NCBI GenBank assembly: GCA_001818835.1
Contig: MHKL01000041.1
Span: 12,292 to 26,161 of the forward strand
DNA length: 13,870 nt
Source of the DNA: Candidatus Komeilibacteria bacterium RIFCSPLOWO2_01_FULL_45_10
GTDB taxonomy: Bacteria; Patescibacteriota; Patescibacteriia; UBA1558; UBA10009
Direction: 5' to 3'
The notes below the pieces were generated by a model. It did no database searches. It worked only from the letters and a program-made list of their open reading frames with translations, and was not told where the DNA came from. Both the position numbers and the translations under genes were made by a program. Shown in pieces: positions 1,292 to 13,870 of the stretch. Within the stretch, counting starts at the first letter, position 1. The number at the start of each line of letters is the position of its first letter.

Positions 1292-3907
1292 ATGAGTCAA
1301 GAACAAAAAACTGAACATCAAGAATTAGAAGGCCATACCTTAATTTGGCAAAGAAGATTTTCGCCAACCGCGATTTTAATAAGAGAAATCAGCGGATTTT
1401 TAAGGGCGATATTAAGAATCGCTTCTTCGGCTTTTGGCTTATACGGTTTATACCTGCTTTTAAACCATCTTTGGCTGATTCAGCAAAGCGGGCTTTCTTT
1501 TTTTGAAGCCAAGGCGTGGCAAACTCCCTCTTTAAGTTATTTTTGGTGGTCGCTTTTGGGGCTGACTTACCTTTTTTACAGTTTCGGCTTGGCGGCGGGC
1601 AAAAATTTCCGCGTCTTAAAAAAAAGTTTTGGCCCGCTCAAGAAAAAAAGAGCGAAAAAGATTAACGTCGCGGAAAGCTTTCATGGCCAGGCGCTTAAAA
1701 CCATTGACCGCGCCTACTTAAAAGCCGTCAGCCAAAAAAAACTGCTGGATCATTACTATCTTTTTCATCAGCTTTTCAACCAGCCCAAAGTCCGGGTGGT
1801 TTTTGCCCGCCTGGGCTTGCCCTGGAAGCCTTTAAAAGTTTTAGCCAACCGCCTTTTGTCCCGTTCGGCCAACCTTGACGCCGCCGCTTCCCGGTCAGCG
1901 ATAGTCAAGGTGTTTTTTGACGCTTATTTTTTTGCTTATCAGGCCGGCCGGAAAAAAGTCATGCCCATTGATTTGCTGGTTGCCGCGGTTCTGTCATCGC
2001 CCCTGCTTCAGGAAGTGCTGGTGGAATTCAACCTGACAGCGGACAAAGTCGCCAACGTCGTCAAATGGCTGCATATCAACGAAACCATGCTGGAGCGCTA
2101 CAAGCATTTCAGGGCCAAAGCCACTTACAAGCCCAAAGGCGCCATGGACCGCGCCATGACCGCTTTGGCCACGCCGGTTTTGGACAGCTTTTCCGACGAC
2201 CTGACTTCGCTTGCCCGGGCCGGCTATCTGCCGCTTTCCGTGGCGCGGGAAAAAGAGCTGGCCGAGATTTTTAACATTATTGAGGGCGGTCGGAACAGCG
2301 TGGTTCTGGTTGGTCTGGCTGGCGTGGGTAAAACCAACATCATTGATGGTTTGGCCAACTTAATGGTGGCCGAAGAAGTGCCTAAAACTTTAAAAGACAA
2401 GCGGTTGGTGAGCTTGTCCATTCCCCGTTTGGTGGCGGGCGCGGCCCGGCCCGGGGTTTTGGAAGAGCGGCTGATGCTGATTGCCAGGGAGGTTTTAAGG
2501 GCGAGGAATGTCATTTTGCACGTTGACGACATTCATAATCTGGTCGGCACCACCTCGGTTTCAGGCGGCAACGTGGAACTAGGCGAAATGTTTGCCGAAA
2601 TTTTGACCAAGAAAGGCATTATTTTAATCGCCACCACCACGCCCGCCGATTATAAGCAGTATTTGGAAAACCATCCTTTGGGCCAGGCCTTGCAAAAGGT
2701 TTTAATTGAAGAGCCGGATGACAACCGCGCCATTTTAATGGTCGAAGCCAAGGCCGGCTATTTGGAAGGCAAAAATCAGGTTTTCTTAAGCTACGGCGCT
2801 ATTGAAAAAGCCGTGGTTTTGTCCAGAAGATTTATTCCCGACCATTATCTGCCGGATAAAGCCATTATCCTGCTGGAAGAAACGGCCACGGCCGTCAGGC
2901 AGGAAAAAGGCAAGAACAGTTTGGTTTCCGGCGAGGATGTGGCCGGCGTCATTGCCCATAAAACCGGCATTCCCTTAACCCAGATTACCCAGAGCGAAAC
3001 GGAAAAACTGCTTAATCTGGAACCGCTTATCCATCAGCGCATGGTTGACCAGGAAGAAGCGGTCAACCTGGTGGCCTCGGCTCTGCGTCGCGCCCGGGCA
3101 GAACTGCGGGATACCAAAAGGCCGATTGTCAATCTGCTGTTTTTGGGCCCGACCGGCGTGGGCAAAACCGAACTGGCCAAAACCGTGGCCCAGATTTATT
3201 TCGGCTCCGAGGACAAAATGATCCGGCTGGACATGAGCGAATACCAGTTAAAGGAAAATCTAAACCGGTTAATCGGTTCCGGCAACGAGGAAAGGGGAAT
3301 TTTAACCGAAGCCGTCAGAAAGTCGCCTTTCGCCCTGGTGCTGTTGGACGAAATTGAAAAAGCCCATCCGGATATTTTGAATCTGTTTTTACAGGTGATG
3401 GACGACGGCCGCCTGACCGATGCTTTGGGCCGGACCGTTGATTTTGGCCATACCATCATTATTGCCACGTCCAACGCCGGCACCCAATTCATTCAGGACA
3501 ATTTAAGAAGCGGGAAAACCCTGGAAGAAGTCAAAAACCAGCTTTTGCTTTCGGAGTTAAAACAGCATTTTAAGCCGGAGTTTTTGAACCGCTTTGACGG
3601 CATTGTTGTTTTTAAACCTTTAAGCCAAGCTGATATTGAAAAAATCACTTACTTGATGCTGGCTAAAGTCAAAAAGCGTTTGGCGGATAAAGGCATCAGC
3701 TTGGAAGTAACGGAAGCCGCTGTAAAAGAGTTAGCCAAAATCGGCTTTGACCCCGCTTTTGGCGCGCGGCCCTTGCGGAGGGCGATTCAGGAAAGGGTGG
3801 ACAGCGCTTTGGCCAATTATCTTTTAACCGGCAAAATCGGCCCAAGGGATAAGGTGATTTTGGAAGAAGGGGGAGGGTTGAGAATTGAGAAAGCGCGTAA
3901 GTTTTAA
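1292..3907 (+). CDS. Membrane-anchored double AAA+ ATPase related to ClpA/ClpC, with altered pore loops
   Basis: 871 residues. A short cytoplasmic head (1-38) is followed by two membrane helices (about 39-63 and 81-103) and a Lys/Arg-rich stretch (104-123), placing the bulk in the cytosol. Residues about 130-270 look like a degenerate Clp N-domain. AAA+ ring 1 (about 305-540): Walker A GLAGVGKT 341-348, Walker B ILHVDD 408-413, sensor 1 at 446-451. Ring 2 (about 565-860): Walker A GPTGVGKT 619-626, Walker B VLLDEIEK 683-690, sensor TSNAG 726-730, arginine finger R767 (EFLNRF), sensor 2 GAR 824-826. Compared with ClpB/ClpC, ring 1 has Asp for the Walker B Glu, ARPG (385-388) where KYRG forms the pore loop, and GQAL (464-467) where ERRF supplies the arginine fingers. 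In ring 2 the GYVGY pore loop is replaced by a shorter SGNEERG (663-669). There is no coiled-coil middle domain and no VGF/LGF ClpP loop. It is probably ClpP-independent; its substrate is unknown. No ribosome binding site precedes the ATG. Confidence 0.88.
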   Translation: MSQEQKTEHQELEGHTLIWQRRFSPTAILIREISGFLRAILRIASSAFGLYGLYLLLNHLWLIQQSGLSFFEAKAWQTPSLSYFWWSLLGLTYLFYSFGLAAGKNFRVLKKSFGPLKKKRAKKINVAESFHGQALKTIDRAYLKAVSQKKLLDHYYLFHQLFNQPKVRVVFARLGLPWKPLKVLANRLLSRSANLDAAASRSAIVKVFFDAYFFAYQAGRKKVMPIDLLVAAVLSSPLLQEVLVEFNLTADKVANVVKWLHINETMLERYKHFRAKATYKPKGAMDRAMTALATPVLDSFSDDLTSLARAGYLPLSVAREKELAEIFNIIEGGRNSVVLVGLAGVGKTNIIDGLANLMVAEEVPKTLKDKRLVSLSIPRLVAGAARPGVLEERLMLIAREVLRARNVILHVDDIHNLVGTTSVSGGNVELGEMFAEILTKKGIILIATTTPADYKQYLENHPLGQALQKVLIEEPDDNRAILMVEAKAGYLEGKNQVFLSYGAIEKAVVLSRRFIPDHYLPDKAIILLEETATAVRQEKGKNSLVSGEDVAGVIAHKTGIPLTQITQSETEKLLNLEPLIHQRMVDQEEAVNLVASALRRARAELRDTKRPIVNLLFLGPTGVGKTELAKTVAQIYFGSEDKMIRLDMSEYQLKENLNRLIGSGNEERGILTEAVRKSPFALVLLDEIEKAHPDILNLFLQVMDDGRLTDALGRTVDFGHTIIIATSNAGTQFIQDNLRSGKTLEEVKNQLLLSELKQHFKPEFLNRFDGIVVFKPLSQADIEKITYLMLAKVKKRLADKGISLEVTEAAVKELAKIGFDPAFGARPLRRAIQERVDSALANYLLTGKIGPRDKVILEEGGGLRIEKARKF

Positions 3908-3910
3908 CTC

Positions 3911-9770: not shown

Positions 9771-11198
9771 ATGAAGAAATTTTACATCACCACCGCCATT
9801 CCTTACGTTAACGCCCGTCCGCACATCGGTTTTGCTTTGGAAGCGGTTCAGGCCGATGTTTTGGCCAGATACCGCCGCGAACTTGGCGAAGAAGTTTTCT
9901 TTTTAACCGGCACCGATGAAAACAGCTTAAAAAACGTCCAGGCCGCGGAAAAAGAGGGGATTGGCCCTCAAATGTTTTGCGACCGAAACGCCAAAATTTT
10001 TTATGATTTAAAAAAGGCCCTTAACCTTTCTTTTGACGAATTTATCAGAACGACGGAAAAACGTCATTTTTTAGGCGCCCAAAAGCTTTGGTCGGCCTGC
10101 CGGCAAGAAGACATTTACAAAAAGAAATATAAGGGTTTGTACTGCGTCGGCTGCGAGACCTTTTACGAGGAAAAGGAGCTAATCCAAGGCAAATGTCCGG
10201 AACACCAAACTGCGCCGGAAGTGATTGAGGAAGAAAATTATTTTTTCAAACTATCCCGCTATCAGGAAAAACTTTTTAAGCTGATTGAATCGGACGAATA
10301 TAAAATCATTCCGTCAACCAGAAAAAACGAGGTCTTGAGTTTTATTAAAATGGGTCTCAAGGATTTTAGCATTTCCCGTTCTAAGGAGCGCGCTCACGGC
10401 TGGGGCGTGCCGGTTCCCGGCGACGAATCGCAGATAATGTATGTCTGGTTTGACGCTCTGGCCAATTATTTGACGGCTCTTGATTATAATAAGGAAGGCA
10501 AATTATATAAAAATTACTGGCCGGCTGATGTCCACGTTATCGGTAAAGGCGTGATTCGTTTTCATGCTGTTTACTGGCCGGCCATGCTTTTATCTGCCGG
10601 CTTGCCTTTGCCTAAAGAGTTGTTTGTTCATGGTTACATTACTTCCGGCGGTGAAAAAATGAGTAAGTCCTTGGGTAATGTGATTAACCCTTTTCAACTG
10701 GTTGAAAAATATGGCGCCGATGCGGTCCGTTACTTTCTTTTAAAGTACGTCCATCCTTTTGAGGACTCTGATTTTACCATTGAAAAATTTGAAGAGGTCT
10801 ATAATGCCGATTTGGCCAATGGTTTGGGGAATTTAGTATCAAGAACAGCTAATTTGATTGAAAAGAATTTTGACGATAAAATCGATATTGGTAATGATAG
10901 GGAGTTTAATTTAGAAGAAGTTGATAAAAGTATAGAAGATTATCAGTTTAATGTTGCTTTTCAAATCATCAATCACTCAATATCGTTATTAGATGCGTAT
11001 ATTGATGAGGAAAAACCGTGGGAATTAATAAAAAAAGATAAAGATCAAGCCAAACGAGTTTTATCAAGATTAACTGATCGAATATTGATTATAGCAAAGA
11101 AATTAAAGCCGTTTTTACCCCAAACCGCCGAAAAAATCCTTAAACAGTTTACAGCCAGAAAAATCAAAAAAGGCGAATCCTTATTTCCAAGAATTTAA
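9771..11198 (+). CDS. metG: Methionyl-tRNA synthetase (compact form)
   Basis: 475 residues. This class I enzyme charges tRNA-Met for initiation and elongation. The start AIPYVNARPHIGF (9-21) carries the HIGH motif as HIGF. The connective peptide has one knuckle, C125/C128 with C142/H145 (YCVGC...CPEH). WFDALANYLTAL (226-237) and the KMSKS loop GGEKMSKSLGN (293-303) are intact. The segment usually TGTDEHG is TGTDENS (46-52). Residues about 345-475 are the helical anticodon-binding domain; the C-terminal Trbp111-like tRNA-binding domain is absent. From about 10780 to 11110 the DNA becomes much more AT-rich than its surroundings while staying in frame. It begins 5 nt after rsmI, so the two are probably co-transcribed. 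Confidence 0.95.
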   Translation: MKKFYITTAIPYVNARPHIGFALEAVQADVLARYRRELGEEVFFLTGTDENSLKNVQAAEKEGIGPQMFCDRNAKIFYDLKKALNLSFDEFIRTTEKRHFLGAQKLWSACRQEDIYKKKYKGLYCVGCETFYEEKELIQGKCPEHQTAPEVIEEENYFFKLSRYQEKLFKLIESDEYKIIPSTRKNEVLSFIKMGLKDFSISRSKERAHGWGVPVPGDESQIMYVWFDALANYLTALDYNKEGKLYKNYWPADVHVIGKGVIRFHAVYWPAMLLSAGLPLPKELFVHGYITSGGEKMSKSLGNVINPFQLVEKYGADAVRYFLLKYVHPFEDSDFTIEKFEEVYNADLANGLGNLVSRTANLIEKNFDDKIDIGNDREFNLEEVDKSIEDYQFNVAFQIINHSISLLDAYIDEEKPWELIKKDKDQAKRVLSRLTDRILIIAKKLKPFLPQTAEKILKQFTARKIKKGESLFPRI

Positions 11199-11255: not shown

Positions 11256-11840
11256 ATGAACACCATTGACATTGTCATTATCGTCATTCTCGCCCTTTTT
11301 GTGTGGAAGGGGATTAAACTCGGCCTAATTGAGGCCGTGGGCGGCATTGTCGGCCTGTTTATCGGCGCGTTTATGGCCGGCCGCTATTATGACGAAGCCG
11401 CGGAAATGCTCAAAGGCCTGCTGTTCGGCTCCGAAATTTTAGCCAAAGTCCTGGGATTTTTATTGGTTTTCATTGTGGTCAACCGCGCCGTGGCTTTGAT
11501 TTTCTGGATTGTTGACAGGGTTTTCCACATCATTGCCGTCATTCCGCTCTTAAAGACGTTTAACCGGCTTTTAGGGGGAATTTTCGGCCTTTTGGAAGGG
11601 TTGATTTTTATCGGCATCATTGTTTTCTTTTTGTCGCTGGTTCCTTTTACCGGCGGCTTGCAGTCAACGGTTCAAAAATCCCGCTTTGCCGGCGCTTTGG
11701 AGACCATTGGCAAAATCGCTGACCCCTTTATTCCGGATTCCATTGCCAGCTGGTCCTTGGATTTGCCCGAGCTTCCCTTGCCGCAGAATTTCGGCGAAAT
11801 CCCCGGCGATATTTCCAATATTATGGATAAGAATAAATAA
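11256..11840 (+). CDS. cvpA: CvpA family membrane protein
   Basis: 194 residues. The N-terminal two thirds match the CvpA (colicin V production) family: MNTIDIVIIVILALFVWKG (1-19), then the GLIEAVGGIVGLFIGAFMAGRYYD segment from residue 23, LAKVLGFLLVFIVVNRAVAL (62-81) and RLLGGIFGLLEGLIFIGIIV from residue 104, giving four membrane helices. The Gly-rich LLGGIFGLLEG is the most typical part. The tail (about 135-194) is soluble and Pro-rich near its end (LPELPLPQNFGEIPG). Family members are implicated in envelope maintenance; the exact role is not established. tatD follows after 16 nt of T-rich sequence without a hairpin, so they are probably co-transcribed. Confidence 0.88.
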   Translation: MNTIDIVIIVILALFVWKGIKLGLIEAVGGIVGLFIGAFMAGRYYDEAAEMLKGLLFGSEILAKVLGFLLVFIVVNRAVALIFWIVDRVFHIIAVIPLLKTFNRLLGGIFGLLEGLIFIGIIVFFLSLVPFTGGLQSTVQKSRFAGALETIGKIADPFIPDSIASWSLDLPELPLPQNFGEIPGDISNIMDKNK

Positions 11841-11856: not shown

Positions 11857-13233
11857 ATGTTAATTGATACTCACGCCCATCTCAACTTCCGCGCCTACGA
11901 CAAAGACCGCGACGAGGTGGTTAAACGTTGCCAGTCAAAGCCAATGAAAGTGATTAACGTCGGCGCCCAGCTGGAAACGTCAAAAAAAGCGGTCGAGCTT
12001 GCCAATCATCACGATAATTTGTACGCCACCGTCGGATTGCATCCCTTGCACGTTTTTGACGAAATTTTTTCCGTCAAGGATTATGAATCTTTAATCAACG
12101 ACAAGGTGGTGGCCATTGGCGAAACCGGCCTGGACTATTGGTGGTTTAAGCACTTACAAGAGCCGTACAAGATTGTTTTATTGCACGGCTGGGGCGGTTC
12201 AAAGGAGGAGCGGTTTTTTATCTGGCTGGATAAGGAATTGACTAAACTCGGCCATCAGGTCATCCGCTTTAATCAGCCGGACACTGATAATCCCAATCAA
12301 GCGGCTTGGCTTAAGGAAACAGGCAAGCAAGTCGGCTACGTCAATGCCAAAACCCTGCTGGTCGGCTTTTCTTTGGGCGGGGCGACCATTTTAAGGTTTT
12401 TGGAAACGCTGGACGAAGACGCGAGAGTGGGCGGCGTTTTTTTGCTGGGCGCGCCGGCTGACCCTTTGGGCTACGTTGAGCTGGCCGATTTTTTTAAAAC
12501 CGATTTTAACTGGGGACAGATCAAATCGGTCTGCCCGAATTTTTACATTTACAGCTCCGACAACGACGAAGTGGTGCCGCCGGCGCACGGCAAAATTTTA
12601 AGTGAAAAGCTGAACGCCAAGTTGAAGGTAGTTAAGGGCGCCTGGCATTTTAACGTGGAAGAACTGCCCGACGTTTTGTCGGACATCAAAAATACCATCA
12701 GTCAGTCGGAAAAAGAATTGCCAACCATTGAAGAAGTGATTAAAAAGCAAAAAGCGCTGTTTTTGGATCACGTTAAACTGGCTAAGATCAATCAGCTGCC
12801 CTTAATGCTCCATGCCCGCAACGGTCCCTCGACTTCGCTCGGGACAGGCTTGGAAGGGAAAAACGTTTACTTGGAAATGCTGGAAATCCTAAAGGAGGAA
12901 AAGGTAGAAAGGGCCGTTTTCCACTGCTATGGCGGCGATTTGGCAACAGCCAAAGAAATTACGGCAAGCGGTTATTTTATCGGCATTGACGGCCCGGTCA
13001 CTTTTACCAAAAAATCGGAGGAACTGCAGAAAATCGTTCGGGAAATTCCCTTAGAAAAAATTTTAATTGAAACCGATTGCCCGTATTTGGCGCCGGAGCC
13101 GCACCGCGGCGAAAGGAATGAGCCTGTGTACGTTGAATTCGTTGCCCAAAAGATAGCCGATCTTAAGGGGCTGTCTAAGGAAGAGGTGATAGAGCGGACT
13201 TGGCAGAATGCCAAAAACCTGTTTAAATTATAA
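11857..13233 (+). CDS. tatD: TatD-family metal hydrolase with a nested RBBP9/YdeN-like serine hydrolase domain
   Basis: 458 residues against about 255-260 for TatD. I chose the ATG at 11857 because the protein then begins MLIDTHAHLN, the standard TatD start; the open frame extends upstream into cvpA. TatD metal ligands: H6, H8, E89 (GETGLDY), H319 (MLHAR), H356 (FHCYGG), D407 (ETDCPYL). Residues about 99-286 are a separate alpha/beta hydrolase inserted after GLDYWWFK: oxyanion-type HGWGGS (110-115), nucleophile elbow GFSLGG (170-175, S172), acid D237 (SDNDEVVPP) and H264 (GAWHFN). The triad order fits the RBBP9/YdeN serine hydrolases. A second insertion, GPSTSLGTGLEGKN (323-336), follows HAR and is encoded by palindromic DNA. 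Removing both leaves a normal-length TatD. TatD proteins are Mg-dependent nucleases and some deacylate D-aminoacyl-tRNA; the serine hydrolase substrate is unknown. There is no ribosome binding site. Confidence 0.9.
   Translation: MLIDTHAHLNFRAYDKDRDEVVKRCQSKPMKVINVGAQLETSKKAVELANHHDNLYATVGLHPLHVFDEIFSVKDYESLINDKVVAIGETGLDYWWFKHLQEPYKIVLLHGWGGSKEERFFIWLDKELTKLGHQVIRFNQPDTDNPNQAAWLKETGKQVGYVNAKTLLVGFSLGGATILRFLETLDEDARVGGVFLLGAPADPLGYVELADFFKTDFNWGQIKSVCPNFYIYSSDNDEVVPPAHGKILSEKLNAKLKVVKGAWHFNVEELPDVLSDIKNTISQSEKELPTIEEVIKKQKALFLDHVKLAKINQLPLMLHARNGPSTSLGTGLEGKNVYLEMLEILKEEKVERAVFHCYGGDLATAKEITASGYFIGIDGPVTFTKKSEELQKIVREIPLEKILIETDCPYLAPEPHRGERNEPVYVEFVAQKIADLKGLSKEEVIERTWQNAKNLFKL
12824..12845 (+). 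repeat. Palindromic segment inside the tatD reading frame
   Basis: GTCCC (12824-12828) and GGGAC (12841-12845) enclose CGA/TCG pairs. The text TCCCTCGACTTCGCTCGGGA is of the type found in dispersed bacterial palindromic elements (from memory), and shares the CGA...GCTCGGG pattern with the element at 13259-13384. It encodes GPSTSLGTG, extra to the TatD family. Confidence 0.65.
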
Positions 13234-13258
13234 TTTGTAGAAAGGAGAGGTATTGAAA

Positions 13259-13384
13259 GCCGCGCCCTAGAGTGTCATCCTGGAGCGGAGCCGAAGGCGG
13301 AGCGATAGGATCCCGTAATTTATAGGAGATTCTATCGCCCTTCGACAAGCTCGGGGCTCCAGAATGACGGCGTGAGGGCGCGGC
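13259..13384 (+). repeat. Large nested palindromic element between tatD and rmuC
   Basis: Outer arms GCCGCGCCCT (13259-13268) and AGGGCGCGGC (13375-13384) are perfect. The next arms, GTCATCCTGGAGC (13274-13286) and GCTCCAGAATGAC (13356-13368), pair at 12 of 13. The core has GCGATAGGATC opposite GATTCTATCGC (13302-13338). It resembles the GTCATCCTGGAGC...GGATC repeats seen in many genomes (from memory). The element is GC-rich and without a T-tract. Confidence 0.75.
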
Positions 13385-13422
13385 CTTGCCGGGGCGCTTG
13401 CCCTAAGTTAATCAAAATATTT

Positions 13423-13870
13423 ATGGAAATATTGTTATTCATCATTTTAGCCGTCATTGTCATGGGTTTTGCCGCCCTGTTTTGGCTTTCCGCCAAAAAA
13501 GGCAAAGACGTTTCGCAGGACCAGTCCATGTTAATGCTGCAGAATCAGCTTAACGAGCTCAATAAAACCCTGGACGCCAAGCTGCACCAATCGTCCCAGG
13601 TGATGCAGCAGCAGTTTTCCCAATCCGCCACCATTATCCGCGACGTTACCGAACGTTTAACCAAGCTTGACGAAACCAACAAGCAGGTAGTTTCTTTTGC
13701 CGACCAGTTAAAATCGCTTCAGGACATTTTAAAAAATCCCAAACAGCGCGGGGTGTTAGGGGAGTATTATTTGGAAACGGTTTTAAAAAACGTTTTGCCG
13801 CCCGGCGCTTATAAGCTGCAGTATCCTTTCAAAGACGGCAGCATCGTGGATGCGGCGATTTTTGTCAAAG
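13423..13870 (+). CDS. rmuC: RmuC family protein, 5' part (runs off the window)
   Basis: 149 codons are visible from the ATG at 13423. Residues 1-21 (MEILLFIILAVIVMGFAALFW) are an N-terminal membrane anchor, as in other RmuC proteins. A coiled-coil stretch rich in Gln, Leu and Asn follows (about 30-100, LNELNKTLDAKLHQSSQVMQ and on). The beginning of the nuclease-like core is plain: LKNPKQRGVLGEYYLETVLKN from about residue 105, then DGSIVDAAIFVK at the edge. RmuC is linked to limiting inversions and recombination at short inverted repeats, notable in a window so rich in them, though that link is inference. No Shine-Dalgarno site precedes the ATG. Confidence 0.92.
   Translation, partial: MEILLFIILAVIVMGFAALFWLSAKKGKDVSQDQSMLMLQNQLNELNKTLDAKLHQSSQVMQQQFSQSATIIRDVTERLTKLDETNKQVVSFADQLKSLQDILKNPKQRGVLGEYYLETVLKNVLPPGAYKLQYPFKDGSIVDAAIFVK

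Follow-up and report, generated by a model that had tools for sequence, protein, structure and literature searches.

Introduction

Domain insertion is a common route to multidomain proteins. In one survey it accounts for 20% of them, and TIM barrels and tRNA synthetases are cited among the preferred insertion hosts (PMC13114784); the survey's text contains no occurrence of TatD and none of Patescibacteria. Human RBBP9 is presented in another study as an aminopeptidase that prefers aromatic residues and requires a free alpha-amine. In cells it trapped hydrophobic amino acids, with amide, ester or thioester bonds allowed by the authors, and its binding site comprises a cage of Tyr99, Leu103, Phe140 and Leu141 and an amine-binding Glu108 (PMC8866121). 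Here, we analyse a gene in which these two themes meet: a TatD metallohydrolase carrying a complete RBBP9/YdeN-like serine hydrolase nested in one of its loops. The gene lies in a stretch of 13,870 nucleotides, hereafter the window, from Candidatus Komeilibacteria bacterium RIFCSPLOWO2_01_FULL_45_10 (assembly GCA_001818835.1, contig MHKL01000041.1, positions 12,292 to 26,161). This TatD nest proves to be genuine and conserved, a double enzyme that exemplifies a wider habit.

An earlier note, made from the letters of this DNA alone, had proposed the nested arrangement and knew of no described TatD of this kind. Among the open-licence papers searched, we likewise found no description of a TatD nest or of a leucyl-tRNA synthetase (LeuRS) with a nested hydrolase.

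Results

The gene is read without interruption from the ATG at 11857 to the stop at 13231-13233, giving 458 codons. Its features are the following:

11857..13233, + strand: open frame of 458 residues with Pfam match, TatD with nested serine hydrolase
11857..12150, + strand: TatD part 1, residues 1-98 (Pfam, alignments)
11872-11874, + strand: ligand position H6, TatD part 1 (alignment)
11878-11880, + strand: ligand position H8, TatD part 1 (alignment)
12121-12123, + strand: ligand position E89, TatD part 1 (alignment)
12151..12699, + strand: inserted RBBP9/YdeN-like serine hydrolase, residues 99 to ~281 (structural matches reach 283-286, 12714)
12370..12372, + strand: predicted catalytic Ser172, in G-F-S-L-G (alignment)
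12565..12567, + strand: predicted catalytic Asp237 (alignment)
12646..12648, + strand: predicted catalytic His264 (alignment)
12715..13230, + strand: TatD part 2, from ~residue 287 (Pfam, alignments)
12811-12813, + strand: ligand position H319, TatD part 2 (alignment)
12922-12924, + strand: ligand position H356, TatD part 2 (alignment)
13075-13077, + strand: ligand position D407, TatD part 2 (alignment)

The Pfam profile TatD_DNase (PF01026) matches over its whole domain in two stretches (E 5.7e-70; 236 bits against a cut-off of 27), which flank a match of Ser_hydrolase (PF06821) to residues 106-269 (E 4e-18; 66.4 bits against a cut-off of 22). The NCBIfam model TIGR00010 scores 229.1 against a cut-off of 206, and the sequence matches in PDB include 1j6o for TatD and both 1uxo (YdeN) and 2qs9 (RBBP9) for the insert. 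From family knowledge and the alignment, we take the six listed positions to be the TatD metal ligands and S-D-H to be the catalytic triad. No other PF01026 or PF06821 protein was found in the same genome at E <= 0.001 (594,480 bases as examined, 72.75% complete). The guanine-plus-cytosine content of the insert (0.497) is near that of its flanks (0.476 and 0.466), so that composition gives no signal of a recent foreign origin; in a comparison of nonsynonymous and synonymous substitution rates, the synonymous rate was saturated.

Homologues were sought with residues 90-310 as query, among candidates of 0.55 to 1.75 times the whole-protein length (252-801 residues) at E <= 1e-5. The 1281 candidates included 15 nested proteins, namely that of the window (P0002) and 14 others, which are 51-90% identical to it and are all listed with TatD and Ser_hydrolase domains. 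Their source names read TatD family hydrolase, from Patescibacteria or Candidatus Komeilibacteria, and one Joint Genome Institute name cites both activities. One of them (P0011) is nearly the same as the protein of the Parcubacteria group bacterium GW2011_GWF2_45_11 (G002, LCKE01000066), in which the nest begins and ends at the same points (65-66% identity). In the alignment, H6, H8, E89, H319, H356 and D407 as well as S172, D237 and H264 are invariant in all 15 nested proteins, as the earlier note's claim of two intact catalytic sets would have it. The ligand positions, all six of them, are likewise unchanged across 28 uninterrupted TatDs. Of 38 standalone hydrolases in the alignment, 37 have the S-D-H triad and one has E for D. 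At whole-genome scale, where the cut-offs used could miss a very distant nest, the nest was found in 2/36 genomes of the order, the window's own (G000) and G002 (E <= 1e-60; the search also hit two uninterrupted TatDs), and in 2/380 genomes of the class, again these two (E <= 1e-70; one further match is uninterrupted). A DNA-pattern scan of genome contigs returned one public locus.

Since 14 further clusters keep the same junctions, a chance origin is excluded, and the open frame together with the conserved homologues rules out an artefact, a frameshift or a pseudogene. We found no point in support of an assembly or binning chimera, and the same 14 clusters and the G002 protein refute it, leaving this explanation with practically no probability.

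The predicted structure of the window protein, built with 43 aligned sequences, has a mean predicted local distance difference test score (pLDDT) of 92.8 and a predicted template modelling score (pTM) of 0.83, with pLDDT below 50 at residues 326-331 only. Both the TIM-barrel fold of TatD and the RBBP9/YdeN fold are present in the model. With Foldseek and VIA-align, the TatD match spans residues 1-458 and the YdeN and RBBP9 matches fall within it, ranging from 103-283 to 99-286. The boundaries first proposed, 12151-12714, are thus right to within a few residues, and the nest, far from being confined to one genome or broken in the model, recurs in 14 homologues and forms both folds. The insert comes after strand 84-93, the bearer of E89, just where the earlier note had placed it. 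In a TIM barrel, this end of the strand belongs to the catalytic face, and it is therefore plausible, given the way such barrels are built and the high pTM of the model, that the two active sites face each other. Such a location would also suit a lid or gate, in which the hydrolase body chiefly restricts or orients the TatD substrates and its own catalysis is secondary; the pTM, suggestive of a fixed orientation, points the same way. However, a triad invariant in 15/15 proteins would be needless for a mere lid, and two orthologues described below do without the insert, so we regard this alternative as improbable.

Comparison with 28 uninterrupted TatDs (258-286 residues) shows that they lack residues 99 to ~281 and that the loop found there is variable in length. 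Two of them, L004 (genome G001) and L003 (genome G004), come from the window's own family, in which five genomes were examined: two have the nest, two have a TatD without it and one has no TatD match. The latter (G003) is a single contig given as 96% complete, without a TatD_DNase match. PF06821 has no match at all in G004 and one weaker match (E 2.8e-11) in G001; therefore, not every member of the family depends on the hydrolase.

When 43 TatDs were placed in a tree built from the host part alone, a single clade of the 15 nested proteins was rejected (approximately unbiased test, AU, p 0.0077). L003 falls firmly within the nested group, pairing with the nested P0015 (99/94), and L004 falls within it only via a weaker branch (93/78). 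In a tree of 103 hydrolase domains, whose bootstrap had not settled, the TatD inserts form one clade (100/97). Not entered in this tree were P0002, a version of the window protein with an extended start; a pair of L054 duplicates; the L041 match of 29 bits; an additional hydrolase open reading frame (ORF) in L073; a 127-residue frame (L047); and L050, which repeats the G002 nest. A single gain, with loss or allele replacement once or twice afterwards, would fit, and so would an exchange of inserts between alleles. Because the L003 loop EILTKGAKSIEEI looks by eye like the loops of the wider order and not like a scar, precise excision of the insert appears a less likely route than several gains or the substitution of an uninterrupted allele.

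These data also bear on whether the fusion could be neutral and inert, retained since excision is hard. The loop is insertion-tolerant, as its variable length in uninterrupted TatDs indicates, and one nested protein (P0010) has its elbow glycine replaced. On the other hand, the catalytic residues and overall identity of the insert are retained at the level of its host, and at least one uninterrupted member stands within the nested group, meaning that a lineage can lose or replace its nest. We consider an inert fusion very improbable.

The same hydrolase is nested in a second host. Among the matches listed for the class, 20 of the 25 hydrolase-bearing frames longer than 300 residues are LeuRSs with a nested hydrolase, which sits at one of three places; some carry NUDIX, Ham1 or HAD domains as well. 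Taking all nested enzymes together (RBBP9-like, NUDIX, Ham1-like, HAD), three or four insertion places recur, and the LeuRS of L070 (1554 residues) has three enzymes. LeuRSs with nested enzymes were recorded in Patescibacteria (L060-L064, L066-L072, L074-L080, P0056-P0065, L087, L096, L097, L106-L108). In a free tree, 27 of the 29 LeuRS rows form one clade (94/89), with L071 and P0065 elsewhere; a common clade of TatD and LeuRS inserts was not rejected (AU p 0.425), so the TatD insert may yet derive from the LeuRS one. As a finding, these LeuRS nests probably outweigh the TatD nest itself. End-to-end fusions of RBBP9-like hydrolases with NUDIX, DUF2130 and GNAT domains were also seen (L073, L059, P0042), as was a PF06821 match (E 3.1e-10; G684:C14:152668-152955) within a reported frame of 24,995 residues, either a giant gene or masked sequence.

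The LeuRS nests raise the question of a coupled aminoacyl-tRNA clean-up, in which the hydrolase would cut aminoacyl esters or amides and TatD would process that substrate or the following one, such as a D-aminoacyl-tRNA or the tRNA 3' end. Indeed, outside TatD the hydrolase family was seen nested mainly in LeuRS, in or beside the editing domain, and metG stands near tatD in the window and in 6/9 loci compared. The cyanobacterial D-aminoacyl-tRNA deacylase DTD3 is TatD-like. TatD has no occurrence in the papers mentioning DTD3, and the accessible open-licence literature yielded no related paper linking TatD with metG or with a D-aminoacyl-tRNA deacylase. Against such a pathway, two orthologues lack the insert, P200 and V239 stand where RBBP9 has its cage residues Y99 and F140, and the same LeuRS slots are also filled by NUDIX, Ham1 and HAD domains, which suggests tolerant slots rather than one pathway. 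The clean-up is thus unlikely in our estimate. The coupled two-step reaction put forward in the earlier note is weakened as well, since the insert is missing from two TatDs of the same family and the hydrolase is also nested in the unrelated LeuRS.

The neighbourhood of the gene comprises the following features:

9771..11198, + strand: putative methionyl-tRNA synthetase (metG), which we take to be so from sequence likeness; kept in most loci compared
11256..11840, + strand: cvpA (Colicin_V family), conserved upstream neighbour
12829..12845, + strand: small palindromic repeat (core), inserted in frame within a loop of TatD part 2 (residues ~323-331)
13423..13869, + strand: start of an RmuC-family gene, downstream, extending past the window end

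The order metG, cvpA, tatD, rmuC is found in the nested L031, with other ORFs between, and in the uninterrupted L004, L005, L012, L014 and L017. L021 has no cvpA match, L028 is without metG and has rsmI adjoining cvpA instead, and L003, a short stretch, has cvpA and tatD only. In L031 (LCKE01000066), the stretch 2933-3909 that separates cvpA from the nested tatD contains ORFs with near-identical peptide repeats of ~37 residues. The palindromic repeat has 27 places in the genome with <=3 mismatches, against 1 for a reversed control. Its loop insert is not present in the 90% identical P0003; in the protein alignment, P0004 and P0006 carry comparable short peptides at this site. Rickettsia genes receive palindromic elements, which the repeat of the window resembles. 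Nested inverted repeats occupy the intergenic region between tatD and rmuC (13256-13387).

Discussion

We favour, with reasonable though far from full confidence, the reading that one gene encodes two autonomous enzymes and that the hydrolase family is an insertion-prone module. The polypeptide would form two complete folds, an ordinary TatD metallohydrolase encoded among its customary neighbours and an RBBP9/YdeN-type hydrolase held in the loop after the third barrel strand, and both sites are predicted from their conserved residues to be catalytically active. The hydrolase would still perform its family's ancestral chemistry, the cleavage of esters or amides in small, perhaps aminoacyl, substrates, and would work largely independently of TatD. 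Its placement in the loop could provide co-production at 1:1 and proximity, without an obligate relay. More generally, the family appears to settle in loops of housekeeping enzymes, TatD here and LeuRS elsewhere, probably owing to the closeness of the two ends of the hydrolase.

Several observations weigh against this reading. Two of the four RBBP9 cage positions are changed (Y99 and F140, as above), L103 and L141 align with L204 and V240, and Glu108 stands opposite a gap, all in a profile alignment judged by eye; by this alignment, the insert does not reproduce the full cage and amine site of an RBBP9-type aromatic aminopeptidase. Given the two changed cage positions, aromatic specificity is not predicted. 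The residue before the serine is F171 in 15/15 TatD inserts, whereas it is H in 29/29 LeuRS inserts and in 55/59 others, and the elbow glycine G174, kept in 14/15 nested proteins, is V in P0010. Because of these changes, the ancestral hydrolase chemistry may have been altered. Furthermore, the high pTM of the model suggests a fixed mutual orientation, needless for two independent enzymes, and the dispensability of the insert is argued from few genomes (five in the family).

A broader and more doubtful idea is that RBBP9-like hydrolases constitute an unrecognised quality-control module of Patescibacteria for aminoacyl esters or amides, repeatedly built into LeuRS, where they lie in its editing domain or adjoin it, and also into a metG-linked TatD. 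There the two sites would share one aminoacylated substrate, and separate clean-up enzymes would give way to ones nested in the very hosts whose errors they correct. The aminoacyl theme common to the TatD nest and LeuRS is the most interesting possibility.

Whatever its chemistry, the nest places a complete and apparently active second enzyme within an ordinary housekeeping enzyme, where it can be traced as a presence/absence trait. It also offers a testable starting point for work on what TatD and RBBP9-like proteins act on, which is poorly understood for both. The larger home of the hydrolase in LeuRS, together with NUDIX, Ham1 and HAD, suggests a general way for very small genomes to join clean-up and essential enzymes.

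Compared with the TatD/YcfH nucleases (PF01026, TIGR00010; 1j6o, 1yix), the window protein has the fold and the six ligand positions in common but contains an extra enzyme, ~183 residues long, within the loop that follows the Glu-ligand strand; solved TatD relatives are 243-362 residues long, with 241-250 of them aligned. With RBBP9/YdeN (PF06821; 1uxo, 2qs9, 7oex), the insert shares the whole fold (181/186 residues of 1uxo aligned) and the S-D-H triad, yet it has no separate start or stop, carries F in place of H before the serine and is changed at 2/4 cage positions. The LeuRS inserts belong to the same hydrolase family, also reside in a housekeeping host and keep the triad in 29/29 cases, but they differ from the TatD inserts in their host and form a separate clade in the free tree.
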